Source: a candidate division WOR-3 bacterium (GTDB lineage Bacteria; Hydrothermota; Tepidihabitantia; Tepidihabitantales; Tepidihabitantaceae). Taken from it: a stretch of 37,163 nt of DNA. Each line of letters starts with the position of its first letter. Position 1 is the stretch's first letter. This document shows positions 210 through 20,496 of this stretch, piece after piece. The translations under genes and the position numbers were made by a program. The notes under the pieces were generated by a model. It saw nothing but the letters and a program-made list of their open reading frames with translations. It was not told where the DNA came from and made no database searches. The stretch is taken from NCBI GenBank assembly GCA_016867815.1, contig VGIR01000024.1:1-37163 (forward strand), given 5' to 3'.

Positions 210-698
210 GTGGCAACAGAACCGGCGCCCCTTCTCTACATCGAGACATCCGTGTTCGGCTTCTGCTTTGACGAGGAACCCCGCAACGTCCTGCGCCGCG
301 AGTCTGCACTGACACTGCTGCGGCAGATGCGTCTCGGCATCCTAGACGGCGGCACGTCGCCGGTCACATACCACGAGTTTGAGGGTGCGGCCGAGCCGCT
401 CCGTTCGAGGCTGCTGGAGTTGCTGAACGATGTACGGATACTGCCTGCCGATGATGAAGAAGTCGAACGACTCGCCCAGGTCTACTTGCGGGAGGGAATT
501 GTGCCGTCGAAGTTCGCCGACGATGCCAGGCACGTCGCCTACGCCACAATCTGTGGCGCCGGCGTTCTCGTGTCCCTCAACCTGCGGCACCTCGCCAACG
601 AGTGGACCGAGCGAAAGGTGGCGGCGGTGAACCAGCGTGAACGCTACGGTATCCTGCATATCAGGACTCCCGAAGAGGTACTCAGCTATGAAGGTTGA
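210..698 (+). CDS. PIN-domain protein, probable VapC-like ribonuclease toxin
   Basis: The 162-residue protein looks like a PIN-domain Mg-dependent endoribonuclease. It opens with a YIETSVF motif (acidic residue E12), has a central acidic position around E56 (TYHEF), and a C-terminal DDARHVAYA motif (D104/D105, H108) followed by LVSLNLRHLAN. This layout is typical of the PIN family used as type II toxins. The GTG start at 210 fits the promoter ending at 204 and leaves no 5' leader. The next ORF begins inside its last codons (ATG 688 versus stop 696-698), so the two are translationally coupled, as in toxin-antitoxin pairs, although here the putative toxin comes first. The fold call is fairly secure; the toxin role is inference from context. 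Confidence 0.75.
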   Translation: MATEPAPLLYIETSVFGFCFDEEPRNVLRRESALTLLRQMRLGILDGGTSPVTYHEFEGAAEPLRSRLLELLNDVRILPADDEEVERLAQVYLREGIVPSKFADDARHVAYATICGAGVLVSLNLRHLANEWTERKVAAVNQRERYGILHIRTPEEVLSYEG

Positions 699-1151: not shown

Positions 1152-1180
1152 TTGACAAGCTCGGCGGGCATTCCTACAAT
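1152..1180 (+). promoter_or_regulatory. Strong promoter upstream of the TIR gene
   Basis: TTGACA (1152-1157), a 17-nt spacer and TACAAT (1175-1180), close to the sigma-70 consensus. The predicted start of transcription falls at about 1187, which is an ATG opening a 24-codon mini-ORF. Confidence 0.75.
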
Positions 1181-1186
1181 CCGGTG

Positions 1187-1261
1187 ATGGAACATGACGG
1201 CAGATGTCTGCTCCAGGGCGGCGGCGCACTGCTGTCTTCTTCTGACAGGAGGCCGAGATGA
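1187..1261 (+). CDS. Leaderless 24-codon upstream ORF coupled to the TIR gene
   Basis: ATG 1187 lies 6 nt after the -10 box, so it should sit at the very 5' end of the transcript. The frame (starting MEHDGRCL, ending DRRPR) stays open for 24 codons and stops at TGA 1259-1261. That stop overlaps the ATG of the TIR gene (ATGA). The AGGAGG serving the TIR gene (1247-1252) lies inside its last codons. The arrangement suggests translational coupling or a leader-peptide control. The peptide has no recognisable similarity, so it may matter only as a translated leader. Confidence 0.45.
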   Translation: MEHDGRCLLQGGGALLSSSDRRPR

Positions 1262-2202
1262 ACCCCGACACTCCCCGGGTTGTCCGCAAAGTGCCGGACC
1301 AACCCCACATCCTCATCGCCAACTGCTTTCAGGATCTGGAATTCGCCCGCAAGCTGACGATGGCGTTGCGCCGGGACCGGGTCAGCCCGTACGTCGACGT
1401 CGGCGAGATGACGCCGAGCGACTCGCTGTTGCGTAGGCTCGCCAGCGCTACCCGTCCCATCGACTGCGTCGTCCCGGTTATCTCCATGCCCTTGCTCGCG
1501 CACAACTGGGTAGGAAGGGAACTGCCCGAGCTGCTCAAGGGAGAGGTCAACGGGAGGCAGGTGCGAATCTGTCCGGTCAAGGTTGACAATTGCTCGCTAC
1601 CTCCCGGCCTGCGGGGCCGGTTCGTCGTCGACTTCTACACCCTCGGCTGGAACCAGGCCTATGGTGCGATCAAGGCGGCAATCCAGGGCCGGGCCGGGGC
1701 CGAGCGGCCCGTGCAGAAGCAGCCGGCAGCAGGTCCGGCCAGGTCAGCGCCCGTGGCTAAGGATGTCACCCCGACCTCGCCGAACCGGAAGCAGCTCTAC
1801 CTGAGCTTTGACCATGAGAACGACGGTTACTATCGAGAGGTTCTGGATACCTGGTCGAAGATGCCGGGCTTTGCCAGCTTCTGGGTCAATGACCAGCCAC
1901 CGGCCGTACCGGTGGACAGCGAAGCCGCCGAACCCATCAAACAGGCACTCGCCAGGCGCATCGGTGCGGCCGGCGGACTGCTGTGCGTGGTGGGGCAGAA
2001 CTCAAGCACGAGCGGCTGGATGGAGTGGGAGATCCGGAAAGCCGACGAGTTGGGCAAACGGCTGATCGCGGTCAGAGTCAATCGGGATTTTGCCTTCCCG
2101 GAGTTACTGTCCGATCTGGGCGCGACCTGTGCCATGTCCTTCACCTTTGAGGGGATTCGTCGGGCAATCGACGAGGCCTACGGAGGCCTGGCGCAGGAGT
2201 AG
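1258..2202 (+). CDS. Dual TIR-domain protein (TIR plus MTH538/ThsB-like TIR)
   Basis: This 314-residue soluble protein has two domains. Residues about 17-135 read as a TIR domain: strand HILIANCF, box-2-like VDVGEMTPSDSLL, CVVPVIS, then NWVGREL with W84 and E88 in the spacing of the TIR catalytic glutamate. A Pro/Ala-rich linker (about 145-175) leads to residues 178-310, which resemble the MTH538 TIR-like family that includes Thoeris ThsB: YLSFDHENDGYYREVLDTW, LLCVVGQNSS, then WMEWEIRKADELGKRLI (W254, W257, E258). TIR proteins of this kind cleave NAD or make cyclic-ADPR-type signals in antiphage defence. No ThsA-like partner is visible nearby. ATG 1258 has AGGAGG 5 nt upstream. The domain calls are solid; a defence role is inference. 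Confidence 0.75.
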   Translation: MNPDTPRVVRKVPDQPHILIANCFQDLEFARKLTMALRRDRVSPYVDVGEMTPSDSLLRRLASATRPIDCVVPVISMPLLAHNWVGRELPELLKGEVNGRQVRICPVKVDNCSLPPGLRGRFVVDFYTLGWNQAYGAIKAAIQGRAGAERPVQKQPAAGPARSAPVAKDVTPTSPNRKQLYLSFDHENDGYYREVLDTWSKMPGFASFWVNDQPPAVPVDSEAAEPIKQALARRIGAAGGLLCVVGQNSSTSGWMEWEIRKADELGKRLIAVRVNRDFAFPELLSDLGATCAMSFTFEGIRRAIDEAYGGLAQE

Positions 2203-2311: not shown

Positions 2312-2791
2312 GTGCGTGGATTCGCACTAGGCATACTGTTGCTCGCCGGCTGCTGCGGCTATTCGACCCGCTCGCTGCTGCCGTCACACCTCAAAGCCGT
2401 GGCGGTACTGCCGGCGGCGAACACAACGACGCAGCCGGGCCTGGCTGAGGCGCTCACCGATTCGCTGGCCGCGGCGTTCACGGCCGACCGGACACTGCGG
2501 GTGACGAACACGGAAGCAGCCGACCTGGTCGTGAGCACGACTGTCTCGAACTACAGCCGGACGGCATCTTCCTACACGGGCGACTCGGTGCAGGCCGTGT
2601 CCGCGTACGAAGTGAGTGTCAGCGCCCAGGTAGACGTACGGGACCAGACACGAAATGAGCAGTTCTACAAAGGGACCGCCTCGGCCCGGGTCAGCTACGA
2701 CCCGAATGCGAAGACCGAAGAGCAGGCGGCGGCGGAGGCGATCAGGAAGCTGGCTTCGGAGATCGTGCGCCAGGTGCAGATTACATGGTAG
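2312..2791 (+). CDS. LptE-like lipoprotein
   Basis: A 159-residue exported lipoprotein. The first 14 residues form a signal peptide ending in a lipobox (LLLAGC, C14). The mature start, CGYSTRSLLPSHLKAVAVLP followed by N-T-T-T-Q-P-G-L, matches the opening of LptE-family proteins, the outer-membrane partner of LptD in lipopolysaccharide assembly. The predicted strands (VVSTTVSNY, YEVSVSAQVDVRD) and the closing helix also fit. GTG 2312 is chosen because the lipobox follows directly and the promoter abuts it. It overlaps the next gene by 7 nt. The LptF/LptG genes in this window support an Lpt role. Other lipoproteins of unknown function share the opening pattern, so the call is by resemblance. 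Confidence 0.65.
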   Translation: MRGFALGILLLAGCCGYSTRSLLPSHLKAVAVLPAANTTTQPGLAEALTDSLAAAFTADRTLRVTNTEAADLVVSTTVSNYSRTASSYTGDSVQAVSAYEVSVSAQVDVRDQTRNEQFYKGTASARVSYDPNAKTEEQAAAEAIRKLASEIVRQVQITW

Positions 2792-18441: not shown

Positions 18442-20253
18442 TCAGATTACCCGGAACTCCAGTCCGATCGCAGCCCCGGGCCAGATGGCGATGTTGGTGC
18501 TGCCGGTCATCTTGTACATCGGTATCACCGACAGGAAGGGGATGCCCGATCCGTCCTCTCCCTGATCCGACAGCCAGACGTTTGCGGCCAGCCCGCCCGT
18601 GATTGCCAGCTTCGGCAGGATCTCCCAGCCGCTGGTCAAACGTACCTTTGCCAGGTAGCTCATGCCGTCGAAGCTCATCATCTCGTCCATGAGATCGACC
18701 CGGTAGCCGACCAGATCCGCGTCGACGAAGAAACGGGAGCAGCCGCGGGGGAAATGTCCGCCGATGCCGTACCCGATCATCACCCGGGCCGGATCAGTAG
18801 GATGGTAGCCGAAGCCCAGAACGTTGTAGAAGGAGCGCCCACCGGTCTTGAGCTCGAACCCGGCGAGGGGTGCCTCACTGGCGAAGACATGGGCACGCAA
18901 CTGGCCGTTGAGTATGACGTTCAGCGGGCCGATGGCGACGTCGTTCTCCCGGGCGAAGTTGAAGGCGCCGAGCTGGAAGCCGCGCACCTCGCCGGCGATG
19001 TTGGCAGCCCCGACCTGTACGCCGAGCGCGCCCCCGGCGAGGTTGAACAGACCCATCTGCAGGCCGCTCGACCGGTCCGGCCACTCGCCAGCCTGGGTGC
19101 CGTAGGTCATGCAGCCGAACTCGCTGACCTTCGCGGCCTCGGCCTGGTTGCCGAGGACGTTGATCCCGCCGAGCTGCAGCTTGCTGGAGCCGCGCAGGAA
19201 ATTGACTCCGCCCAGAGCGATATCGTTTTCACCGCCGCCGATGTTTATGCCACCGAGGGTGAAGCTCGCGTCGTGCCGCGCCACATTGCAGCCGCCGATC
19301 TGCGCCGCAGAGCTGCCGCCCGTAGCGTTAACGCCGCCGAACTGCACCGACGCATCGCCACCGGCAACATTGACTCCACCTAGTTGAAGAACGCTGGAAC
19401 CGGCGACCAGATTGGCTGCGCCGAGGGCGACTCCGTTGTCGCCGCCGCCGAAGTTGACACCACCCAGTGTCAGACCGGTCTTCCCGCGAGCCGCATTCAC
19501 CCCGCCGAGCTGCAGGCCCGCGCTGCCACCCGTGGCATTCAATCCGCCCAACTGAATCGGCACGTTCCCGCCGGCGATGTTGACGCCGCTCAGCTGCGCC
19601 ACGCCTACGTCGCCGCGTGCCAAGTCAAACAGGCCAAGCTGCAGTCCGGCGCCACCCCAGGACAGGTTGACCCCGCCGAACTGACAGGCAGCCCAAGTGC
19701 CACCGAAGTTGACCGCGCCCAACTGGAGGCAGCGTGCCTCTCCCTTGGCGACGTTGACCCCGCCAATCTGCAGGCCGCGGGCGTCCCGCATCACGAAGTT
19801 GCCAAGCAGTGCCAGCTGGAACCCGCTGAAATCACCCCACAATCTGGTTGCGGGCCCGCGGCCGCAGAGCTGATTGCCGCCCTGTGCGGCGACGTTCGCG
19901 TCACCGCAATGCTCGTTGGCGGCGCAGGACGAGCCGACGCCGACAACATTCACGCCGCCGGCCAGCTGTATCCACCTGGCGTCGTAGGCCTCAACGTTGA
20001 AAAGCGCTCCCAACTCGAAGCCGCGAAGTTCGCCGACGTAACCGCCGAGGATGTTGAGTGAGATGTTGGTCGCAACGTTGCCTGACTGGCTCCCGTTGGT
20101 GGAGATCGGCGGGAACAGCGACAAACTGACAGGGTGGTGGACGATGAGAGAGCTGCTGCTGGCGCAACAACTCGCAGTTGCGCTGGACACCGGAATGATG
20201 GCGGCCACTAAGACGGCAACCATCGCGGTCCTGATACGACCTGTTGTAGACAC
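18442..20253 (-). CDS. Exported surface-repeat protein (LA_2272-like 14-residue G-x-x-N repeats)
   Basis: 603 residues with an N-terminal signal sequence (MVAVLVAAIIPVSSATA, about 11-27). Residues about 75-430 are tandem 14-residue units of the type QLGGVNxxxGxxxL, more than 15 copies with a few loops. One loop is Cys-rich (around CAANEHCGDANVAAQ). Units like QIGGCNVARHDASF and ALGGVNFLRGSSKL repeat exactly 14 residues apart, which suggests a beta-solenoid or stacked beta sheet. The last about 150 residues are different and beta-rich, ending in F-R-V-I, like an outer-membrane barrel tail. This matches the LA_2272 surface-repeat family known from Leptospira; the function is unknown. GTG 20253 is chosen for AAGGAGG 7 nt upstream; in-frame ATGs at 20319/20316 would put that motif inside the gene. 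Confidence 0.75.
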   Translation of the reverse strand: MSTTGRIRTAMVAVLVAAIIPVSSATASCCASSSSLIVHHPVSLSLFPPISTNGSQSGNVATNISLNILGGYVGELRGFELGALFNVEAYDARWIQLAGGVNVVGVGSSCAANEHCGDANVAAQGGNQLCGRGPATRLWGDFSGFQLALLGNFVMRDARGLQIGGVNVAKGEARCLQLGAVNFGGTWAACQFGGVNLSWGGAGLQLGLFDLARGDVGVAQLSGVNIAGGNVPIQLGGLNATGGSAGLQLGGVNAARGKTGLTLGGVNFGGGDNGVALGAANLVAGSSVLQLGGVNVAGGDASVQFGGVNATGGSSAAQIGGCNVARHDASFTLGGINIGGGENDIALGGVNFLRGSSKLQLGGINVLGNQAEAAKVSEFGCMTYGTQAGEWPDRSSGLQMGLFNLAGGALGVQVGAANIAGEVRGFQLGAFNFARENDVAIGPLNVILNGQLRAHVFASEAPLAGFELKTGGRSFYNVLGFGYHPTDPARVMIGYGIGGHFPRGCSRFFVDADLVGYRVDLMDEMMSFDGMSYLAKVRLTSGWEILPKLAITGGLAANVWLSDQGEDGSGIPFLSVIPMYKMTGSTNIAIWPGAAIGLEFRVI

Positions 20254-20333
20254 GCTAGTTCCTCCTTGCGGTAAGGTGACCAATGAAAGCCGACAGCACT
20301 GCCTAGGCTGAGTCATCATTGCTTGACGCGCTA

Positions 20334-20361
20334 AGTCTACGCTACGACTGTCGGCTGTCAA
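20334..20361 (-). promoter_or_regulatory. Promoter of the surface-repeat gene
   Basis: Minus strand TTGACA (20361-20356), a 16-nt spacer and TAGACT (20339-20334). Unlike most promoters here it leaves a leader of about 70 nt with a good Shine-Dalgarno (AAGGAGG, 20267-20261). Its -10 is identical to that of the TPR gene just downstream. Confidence 0.6.
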
Positions 20362-20496
20362 CTTGCGCAACAGAGGAACTTTAGGGTGCCAGCGACGCCC
20401 CCAGCCCGCGATTCTGGCAGGCTCGTGCATGGATTGGGCAGGAACTGGACCGGTGAGGGCCGGCCGCTGGTTGTGGTCCACGGTGCGGAAGAAAAG

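Follow-up and report, generated by a model that had tools for sequence, protein, structure and literature searches.

The 37,163 nucleotides analysed here (the whole stretch, hereafter the window) encode a protein in which two TIR domains of different types, an N-terminal TIR_2-type domain (N-TIR) and a C-terminal ThsB-type domain (C-TIR), are joined in a single chain. This two-TIR architecture is real, conserved and restricted to one genus of WOR-3, and it represents known TIR biology in a new arrangement. The gene, its expression signals and the parts of its protein are located in the window as follows.

1152..1180, + strand: sigma-70-type promoter, TTGACA-17-TACAAT (sequence; such a site is found in all TIR genes of the family)
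1247..1252, + strand: Shine-Dalgarno AGGAGG (sequence; the ATG lies 5 nt further on)
1258..2202, + strand: two-TIR protein, 314 aa (ORF, Pfam, AlphaFold2, family conservation)
1303..1686, + strand: N-terminal TIR_2-type domain, residues 16-143 (PF13676, E 1.2e-18; AbTir/BtTir-type fold)
1507-1509, + strand: W84 of the N-TIR
1519-1521, + strand: E88 of the N-TIR
1693..1782, + strand: Pro/Ala-rich flexible linker, residues 146-175 (low pLDDT; dN/dS raised in most pairs)
1786..2184, + strand: C-terminal ThsB-type TIR domain, residues 177-309 (PF08937, E 4.4e-12; alignment to BcThsB 6lhy/9b7d, EcThsB2 8v6t, and 8fz9)
1798..1800, + strand: Y181, counterpart of the active-site Tyr8 of EcThsB2 (alignment to 8v6t, column counts, PMC11204291)
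2017..2031, + strand: W254-M-E-W257-E258, putative catalytic motif of the C-TIR (invariance of W254, W257 and E258 in two-TIR proteins)

Domain composition of the two-TIR protein

A first-pass annotation of this DNA had proposed that two distinct TIR types, the second of them ThsB-like, share one chain, and this was borne out by profile searches and structure prediction. Against Pfam, the whole protein matched TIR_2 (PF13676) at residues 25-132 with 68.2 bits (cut-off 28) and ThsB_TIR (PF08937) at residues 181-275 with 46.7 bits (cut-off 21.2). Scored singly, the N-terminal half matched TIR_2 at 2.8e-12 (47.6 bits) and the C-terminal half ThsB_TIR at 1.9e-12, each half thus scoring as its own TIR type above the curated cut-off, while the ThsB models of PADLOC matched the C-terminal half only (E 1.5e-9). 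The residues W84/E88 and W254/W257/E258 were found where they had been placed, and both halves fit the W-x3-E motif of TIR domains. AlphaFold2, with an input alignment made up of the window and fetched-locus proteins only, predicted two domains at approximately residues 17-142 and 179-307 (pLDDT > 92), separated by a disordered Pro/Ala linker at approximately 145-175 (pLDDT below 50 to 70); with a pTM of 0.58, the mutual orientation of the two domains is not fixed by the model. The confident full-domain matches returned by Foldseek against the PDB were TIR domains (8fz9 of Bacillus cereus, AbTir, BtTir, BtpA, PdTir and EcThsB).

Both domains are under purifying selection, with dN/dS values of 0.11-0.29 for the N-TIR and 0.13-0.32 for the C-TIR (saturated for the window/L020 pair), while the linker lies mostly at 0.4-0.6. 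A chance join or an assembly artefact of two adjacent genes might be suspected, given that the source is a draft metagenome-type assembly (3.37 Mb in 215 contigs) with an estimated contamination of 4.7%. However, eight homologous two-TIR genes from five independent genomes, all with the same domain order, together with the low dN/dS of both domains, effectively rule this out.

Occurrence, relatives and chromosomal setting

The source genome carries two two-TIR genes, the window copy and L017 (46% identical), as well as two single-TIR genes (L018 and L019) which encode the N-TIR alone. In a survey of 147 WOR-3 genomes, the full-length family was confined to the genus of the window: eight two-TIR genes were present in five of its six genomes and none in the 141 other WOR-3 genomes, where ThsB_TIR was found without an N-TIR, mostly in frames of 85-224 aa. 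The same five genomes hold at least six single-TIR genes, and the sixth has one N-TIR, truncated where its contig ends. When 84,980 species were scanned with patterns derived from the C-TIR, which would miss two-TIR proteins whose C-TIR is very different, 62 loci were obtained, five of them two-TIR (all WOR-3) and 57 elsewhere matching the C-TIR alone. The open frames around these 57 matches, all short, contained no N-TIR, and the fusion was seen in no genome outside the genus among those searched. Copies of the full protein on phages or plasmids were also sought, and none was found; the matches cover one domain (mostly the C-TIR) and never more than 47% of the query. Three different TIR_2 genes (L102, L109 and L129) lie within about 8 kb in a sister genome from the same genus (G004:C322).

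The 57 loci outside WOR-3 encode single ThsB-type TIRs of approximately 130-220 aa with 24-41% identity to the C-TIR and W-x3-E in nearly all. A conserved protein of approximately 200 aa with membrane-like sequence adjoins the stand-alone ThsB_TIR in 32 of 53 loci. This protein is encoded downstream of ThsB_TIR (L045:8431-9036 and 31 other loci) and has no Pfam or PADLOC match; the pairing spans many phyla as well as viral contigs, and is a candidate two-gene system of a TIR and a membrane effector. In staphylococcal phages, a DUF4231 and ThsB_TIR gene pair lies beside the integrase (L153:3561-4399, Staphylococcus phage SN8), and a DUF4231 partner is also next to ThsB_TIR on a Staphylococcus aureus plasmid (L152). 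A 9.9-kb plasmid of Acinetobacter johnsonii carries a four-gene cluster of TIR_2, ThsB_TIR, a TPR-S protein and a further ThsB_TIR (L154:2546-5390), in which the two TIR types fused in WOR-3 are separate genes. On a Lichenicola plasmid, a C-TIR relative is accompanied by a SLOG-like protein and a TIR-TPR-S protein. The operons of the closest stand-alone relatives of the C-TIR, some of them on plasmids, include TPR-S proteins, other TIRs or a SLOG-like protein, and the outside relatives sit in conflict-type operons.

The WOR-3 genes have none of these partners beside them. The first-pass remark that no known partner adjoins the window gene held, as no ThsA is next to it, and no ThsA-like gene was found beside any paralogue, so that the operon arrangement of Thoeris is lacking. 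Among the six genomes of the genus, ThsA_Macro was found in none, STALD in none (in a search without a positive control) and relatives of the ~200-aa membrane-like protein in none; SIR2_2 is sporadic, being missing from G001, G003 and G005 and sub-threshold in the source genome, and TPR-S genes are also sporadic. No effector family among STALD, ThsA_Macro, SIR2_2 and the ~200-aa relative is conserved with the two-TIR gene across the six genomes.

Copies of the two-TIR gene are found at two conserved chromosomal positions, beside dnaN/xseA and beside lptE/rlmD. Four copies from four species (L017, L023, L024 and L025) share flanks encoding a DUF2207 protein, DNA polymerase III beta, the exonuclease VII large subunit and 3-hydroxyacyl-CoA dehydrogenase. 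The window copy and L020, which are 67% identical, share the downstream stretch lptE-rlmD-amidohydrolase, to which the following gene of the window belongs.

2312..2791, + strand: LptE-like gene, downstream of the two-TIR gene and syntenic with L020 (PF04390, E 5.8e-13)

Every one of the family's 15 TIR genes is preceded, within 228 nt, by a TTGAC-N16-18-TA promoter, for which chance predicts 0.04 sites per 250 nt. Within the 88 ORFs around the paralogues there was no PADLOC defence match except for one TatD-type nuclease (QatD model), and the absence of defence or mobility neighbours together with the synteny across species does not describe a mobile defence island. The first-pass annotation had spoken of a compact defence protein; both halves do score as TIR, as it proposed, but the homologues lie in conserved housekeeping surroundings inherited vertically, an outcome which it had itself listed as speaking against its reading, and a defence context was not supported. 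Such settings weaken the defence reading. A defence role is plausible by homology only, with gene context adding no support.

Single-TIR paralogues are present in every genome with two-TIR genes (5/5). In the N-TIR tree they form one group (91/91), with the base of the tree unresolved. Their proteins stop just past the linker, and no remnant of a decayed C-TIR was found downstream of the genes. An untranslated leader of 127-145 nt, lying between the promoter and the start codon, is common to seven genes, of which three are two-TIR genes from the dnaN group and four are single-TIR genes.

L017:10555-10691, - strand: leader
L024:9331-9464, - strand: leader
L025:9140-9273, + strand: leader
L018:13110-13236, - strand: leader
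L019:395-539, + strand: leader
L026:224-356, + strand: leader
L028:8575-8709, + strand: leader

Between the two-TIR and single-TIR classes, leader identity is 64-74% for six of the seven genes and 45-54% for S_G000b. This conservation equals that of the coding part, the DNA upstream of the promoter is dissimilar, and the genes concerned lie at unrelated loci. A search of the six genomes found the leader only before these genes, besides short marginal matches. It is compatible with a long hairpin, with 92.6% of cells paired and four pairs with double changes, from seven sequences, which are few; the folding energies are no better than those of shuffles. The leader is probably structured and is possibly a cis-acting RNA element. 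In Rfam, nothing in the window reached the gathering threshold, and L026/L027 gave one match at chance level. The window gene itself does not have the shared leader.

Active sites and a proposed division of labour

Among the 14 family members the active site of the N-TIR is relaxed in many. The position of Glu88 is occupied by Asp in four (L018, L024, L025 and L029), a distribution for which the family tree requires three or more changes, residue 19 is V/I/L in 13 with Phe only in L020, and the BB-loop GDS is lost in 12, being full in one member and SDS in the window. The N-TIR family as a whole therefore does not carry the combination expected of an active TIR NADase, namely the Glu of W-x3-E with Phe or Ala opposite, and the first-pass suggestion that both halves are enzymes is not supported by these counts. 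In the Asp-bearing pair L024/L025, dN/dS of the N-TIR is nevertheless 0.11. As purifying selection persists in this pair, the N-TIR is likely to serve something which tolerates the change from Glu to Asp; it is probably required, yet in many members it is probably not a canonical NADase. The most canonical N-TIRs of the family are those of the window copy, which has Leu at residue 19 but retains Glu88 and the BB-loop Asp55-Ser56, and of its ortholog L020, in which Phe19, BB loop and Glu are all kept. For this reason the N-TIR of the window subgroup may itself be active.

The site of the C-TIR is held more strictly. W254, W257 and E258 do not vary in the eight two-TIR proteins; the 32 stand-alone relatives all keep W254 and E258 and have an aromatic residue at position 257. 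Residue 181, which aligns with Tyr8 of EcThsB2 (8V6T), is always Phe in the 32 stand-alone relatives (alignment A4); the two-TIR proteins are split, four of them, including that of the window, having Tyr and four Phe, and even the orthologs L024 and L025 disagree. At the position equivalent to Tyr8, Phe or Ala is usual in TIRs with NADase activity, and no NADase activity was detected for EcThsB2, which has Tyr8 in its active site (PMC11204291). On its residues, the C-TIR would fit an active TIR NADase or ThsB, with the Glu of W-x3-E and Phe/Ala/Tyr opposite. The C-TIR looks like a working signal-making enzyme and the N-TIR like a controller.

It is tentatively suggested, with slightly less than even confidence, that the protein is a single-chain pair of unlike TIRs, in which the ThsB-like C-TIR would be an NAD+-processing enzyme and the N-TIR would mainly regulate or scaffold it by detecting or relaying a trigger. 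Alternatively, the N-TIR might provide the partner surface in a head-to-tail TIR assembly with a composite active site, since the active sites of TIR NADases arise between two TIRs (PMC12847820). Assembly would lead to NAD+ cleavage by the C-TIR and so to an ADPR-type signal and/or NAD+ loss, and single-TIR paralogues may join through their N-TIRs. Given that no partner adjoins the gene and none of the ThsA families searched was conserved across the six genomes, the protein would either cause NAD+ loss itself or signal to a receiver that is not linked to it. In staphylococcal Thoeris, Sau-ThsB1 binds the phage capsid, its own catalytic Glu being mutable, and recruits ThsB2, whose Glu is needed (PMC12578639); a fused pair resembling ThsB1 and ThsB2 fits the WOR-3 protein because one TIR is catalytically relaxed and the other is ThsB-type, and one chain would then do the job of both the sensor TIR and the cyclase TIR. 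What we infer comprises NAD+ cleavage, signal making, a regulatory part for the N-TIR, co-assembly and any function in cell death or in defence against phages. The single-chain pair is supported by the invariant C-TIR site, the decayed N-TIR site under continued purifying selection, the flexible linker between rigid domains and the operons of the closest stand-alone C-TIR relatives with TPR-S, SLOG-like protein and other TIRs. Against it count Glu88 and Asp55-Ser56 in the window N-TIR (and also Phe19 in L020), the chance that Asp might functionally replace Glu, the lack of a predicted interdomain arrangement, the window Tyr181 shared with EcThsB2, and the conserved housekeeping surroundings free of defence neighbours and signs of mobility.

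The W-x3-E of both halves of the window protein, the resemblance of the N-TIR to the NADases AbTir and BtTir, the canonical N-TIR of L020 and the failure to recognise a ThsA would also agree with two active NADases forming a self-contained effector, whose depletion of NAD+ would kill or arrest infected cells. This is considered unlikely, as the N-TIR site has decayed in most members while purifying selection persists and residue 19 is Leu in the window. Were the C-TIR instead to produce a nucleotide signal whose effector is encoded at another chromosomal site, the system would be dispersed and Thoeris-like; the ThsB-like character of the C-TIR, the candidate effectors adjoining its outside relatives (the ~200-aa protein, DUF4231, TPR-S) and the sporadic SIR2_2 and TPR-S genes of the genus could be read in this way. 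The likelihood of such a system is also judged to be low, since none of the effector families searched, with the STALD result resting on a search without positive control, is conserved with the two-TIR gene, SIR2_2 being missing from three genomes and the ~200-aa relative from all six. The vertical inheritance of copies fixed next to dnaN/xseA/DUF2207 and lptE/rlmD, individual sigma-70-type promoters and the lack of defence neighbours could point away from immunity altogether, to a non-catalytic regulator or scaffold of ordinary cell physiology in the genus. The invariant ThsB-type catalytic motif argues against this, and confinement to one genus with expansion of paralogues is unusual for housekeeping genes, making it the most improbable of these functional readings.

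The two-TIR protein might further belong to a TIR signalling circuit that is fixed in the chromosome of this genus and passed on vertically, a bacterial counterpart of receptor/adaptor TIR networks; only a small probability is given to this proposal. Scattered two-TIR receptors or enzymes and single-TIR adaptors, all under promoters of their own and several with a common structured 5' leader, would assemble through their N-TIRs and thereby switch on the ThsB-type enzyme.

Staphylococcal type I Thoeris (PMC12578639) is comparable in having two unlike TIRs, a sensor with dispensable Glu and a catalytic ThsB-type TIR, but these are two proteins in an operon with ThsA, whereas the WOR-3 protein is one chain, chromosomally inherited, with no operon and no adjoining ThsA. 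Stand-alone ThsB_TIR proteins (PF08937, formerly DUF1863) share the domain of the C-terminal half but lack an N-terminal TIR and usually lie beside the ~200-aa membrane-like protein, DUF4231 or TPR-S. The TIR_2 NADases of the AbTir/BtTir type share the fold and W-x3-E of the N-terminal half, from which they differ at residue 19, at the Glu position and in the mostly lost GDS. In SpbK and other TIR effectors with a composite BE-interface site (PMC12847820), two TIRs likewise build one active site, but each chain has a single TIR and an unrelated N-terminal sensor domain. Two TIRs per chain are known from mollusc tandem-TIR Tolls (PMC4929906) and Dictyostelium TirE (PMC13142454), which are eukaryotic receptor or RCC1-repeat proteins ending in tandem TIRs and do not combine TIR_2 with a ThsB-type TIR. 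A natural fusion of sensor and enzyme TIR, in a family where catalytic residues are missing from the N-TIR of many members, would allow their division of labour to be tested in one polypeptide. It would also exemplify TIR genes retained by vertical descent outside mobile defence islands, and is relevant to the way in which immune TIRs settle permanently in genomes.

Other features of the window

Of the PIN gene pair reported beside the two-TIR gene, a PIN-like gene does adjoin (window 210-698, + strand), but its match is weak (E 0.0038, below cut-off). A small ORF at 688-879 starts inside the end of this gene and could form a toxin-antitoxin-like pair with it. The palindrome described in the same place is present as an inverted repeat with 16-nt arms at 985-1000 and 1082-1097, which are 94% complementary, lie 81 nt apart and precede the promoter of the TIR gene. 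Further along the window, the ORF list includes a 679-aa protein (18442-20481, - strand) with many repeats like LQLGGVNVAGG, which have a pentapeptide-like or beta-helix look.
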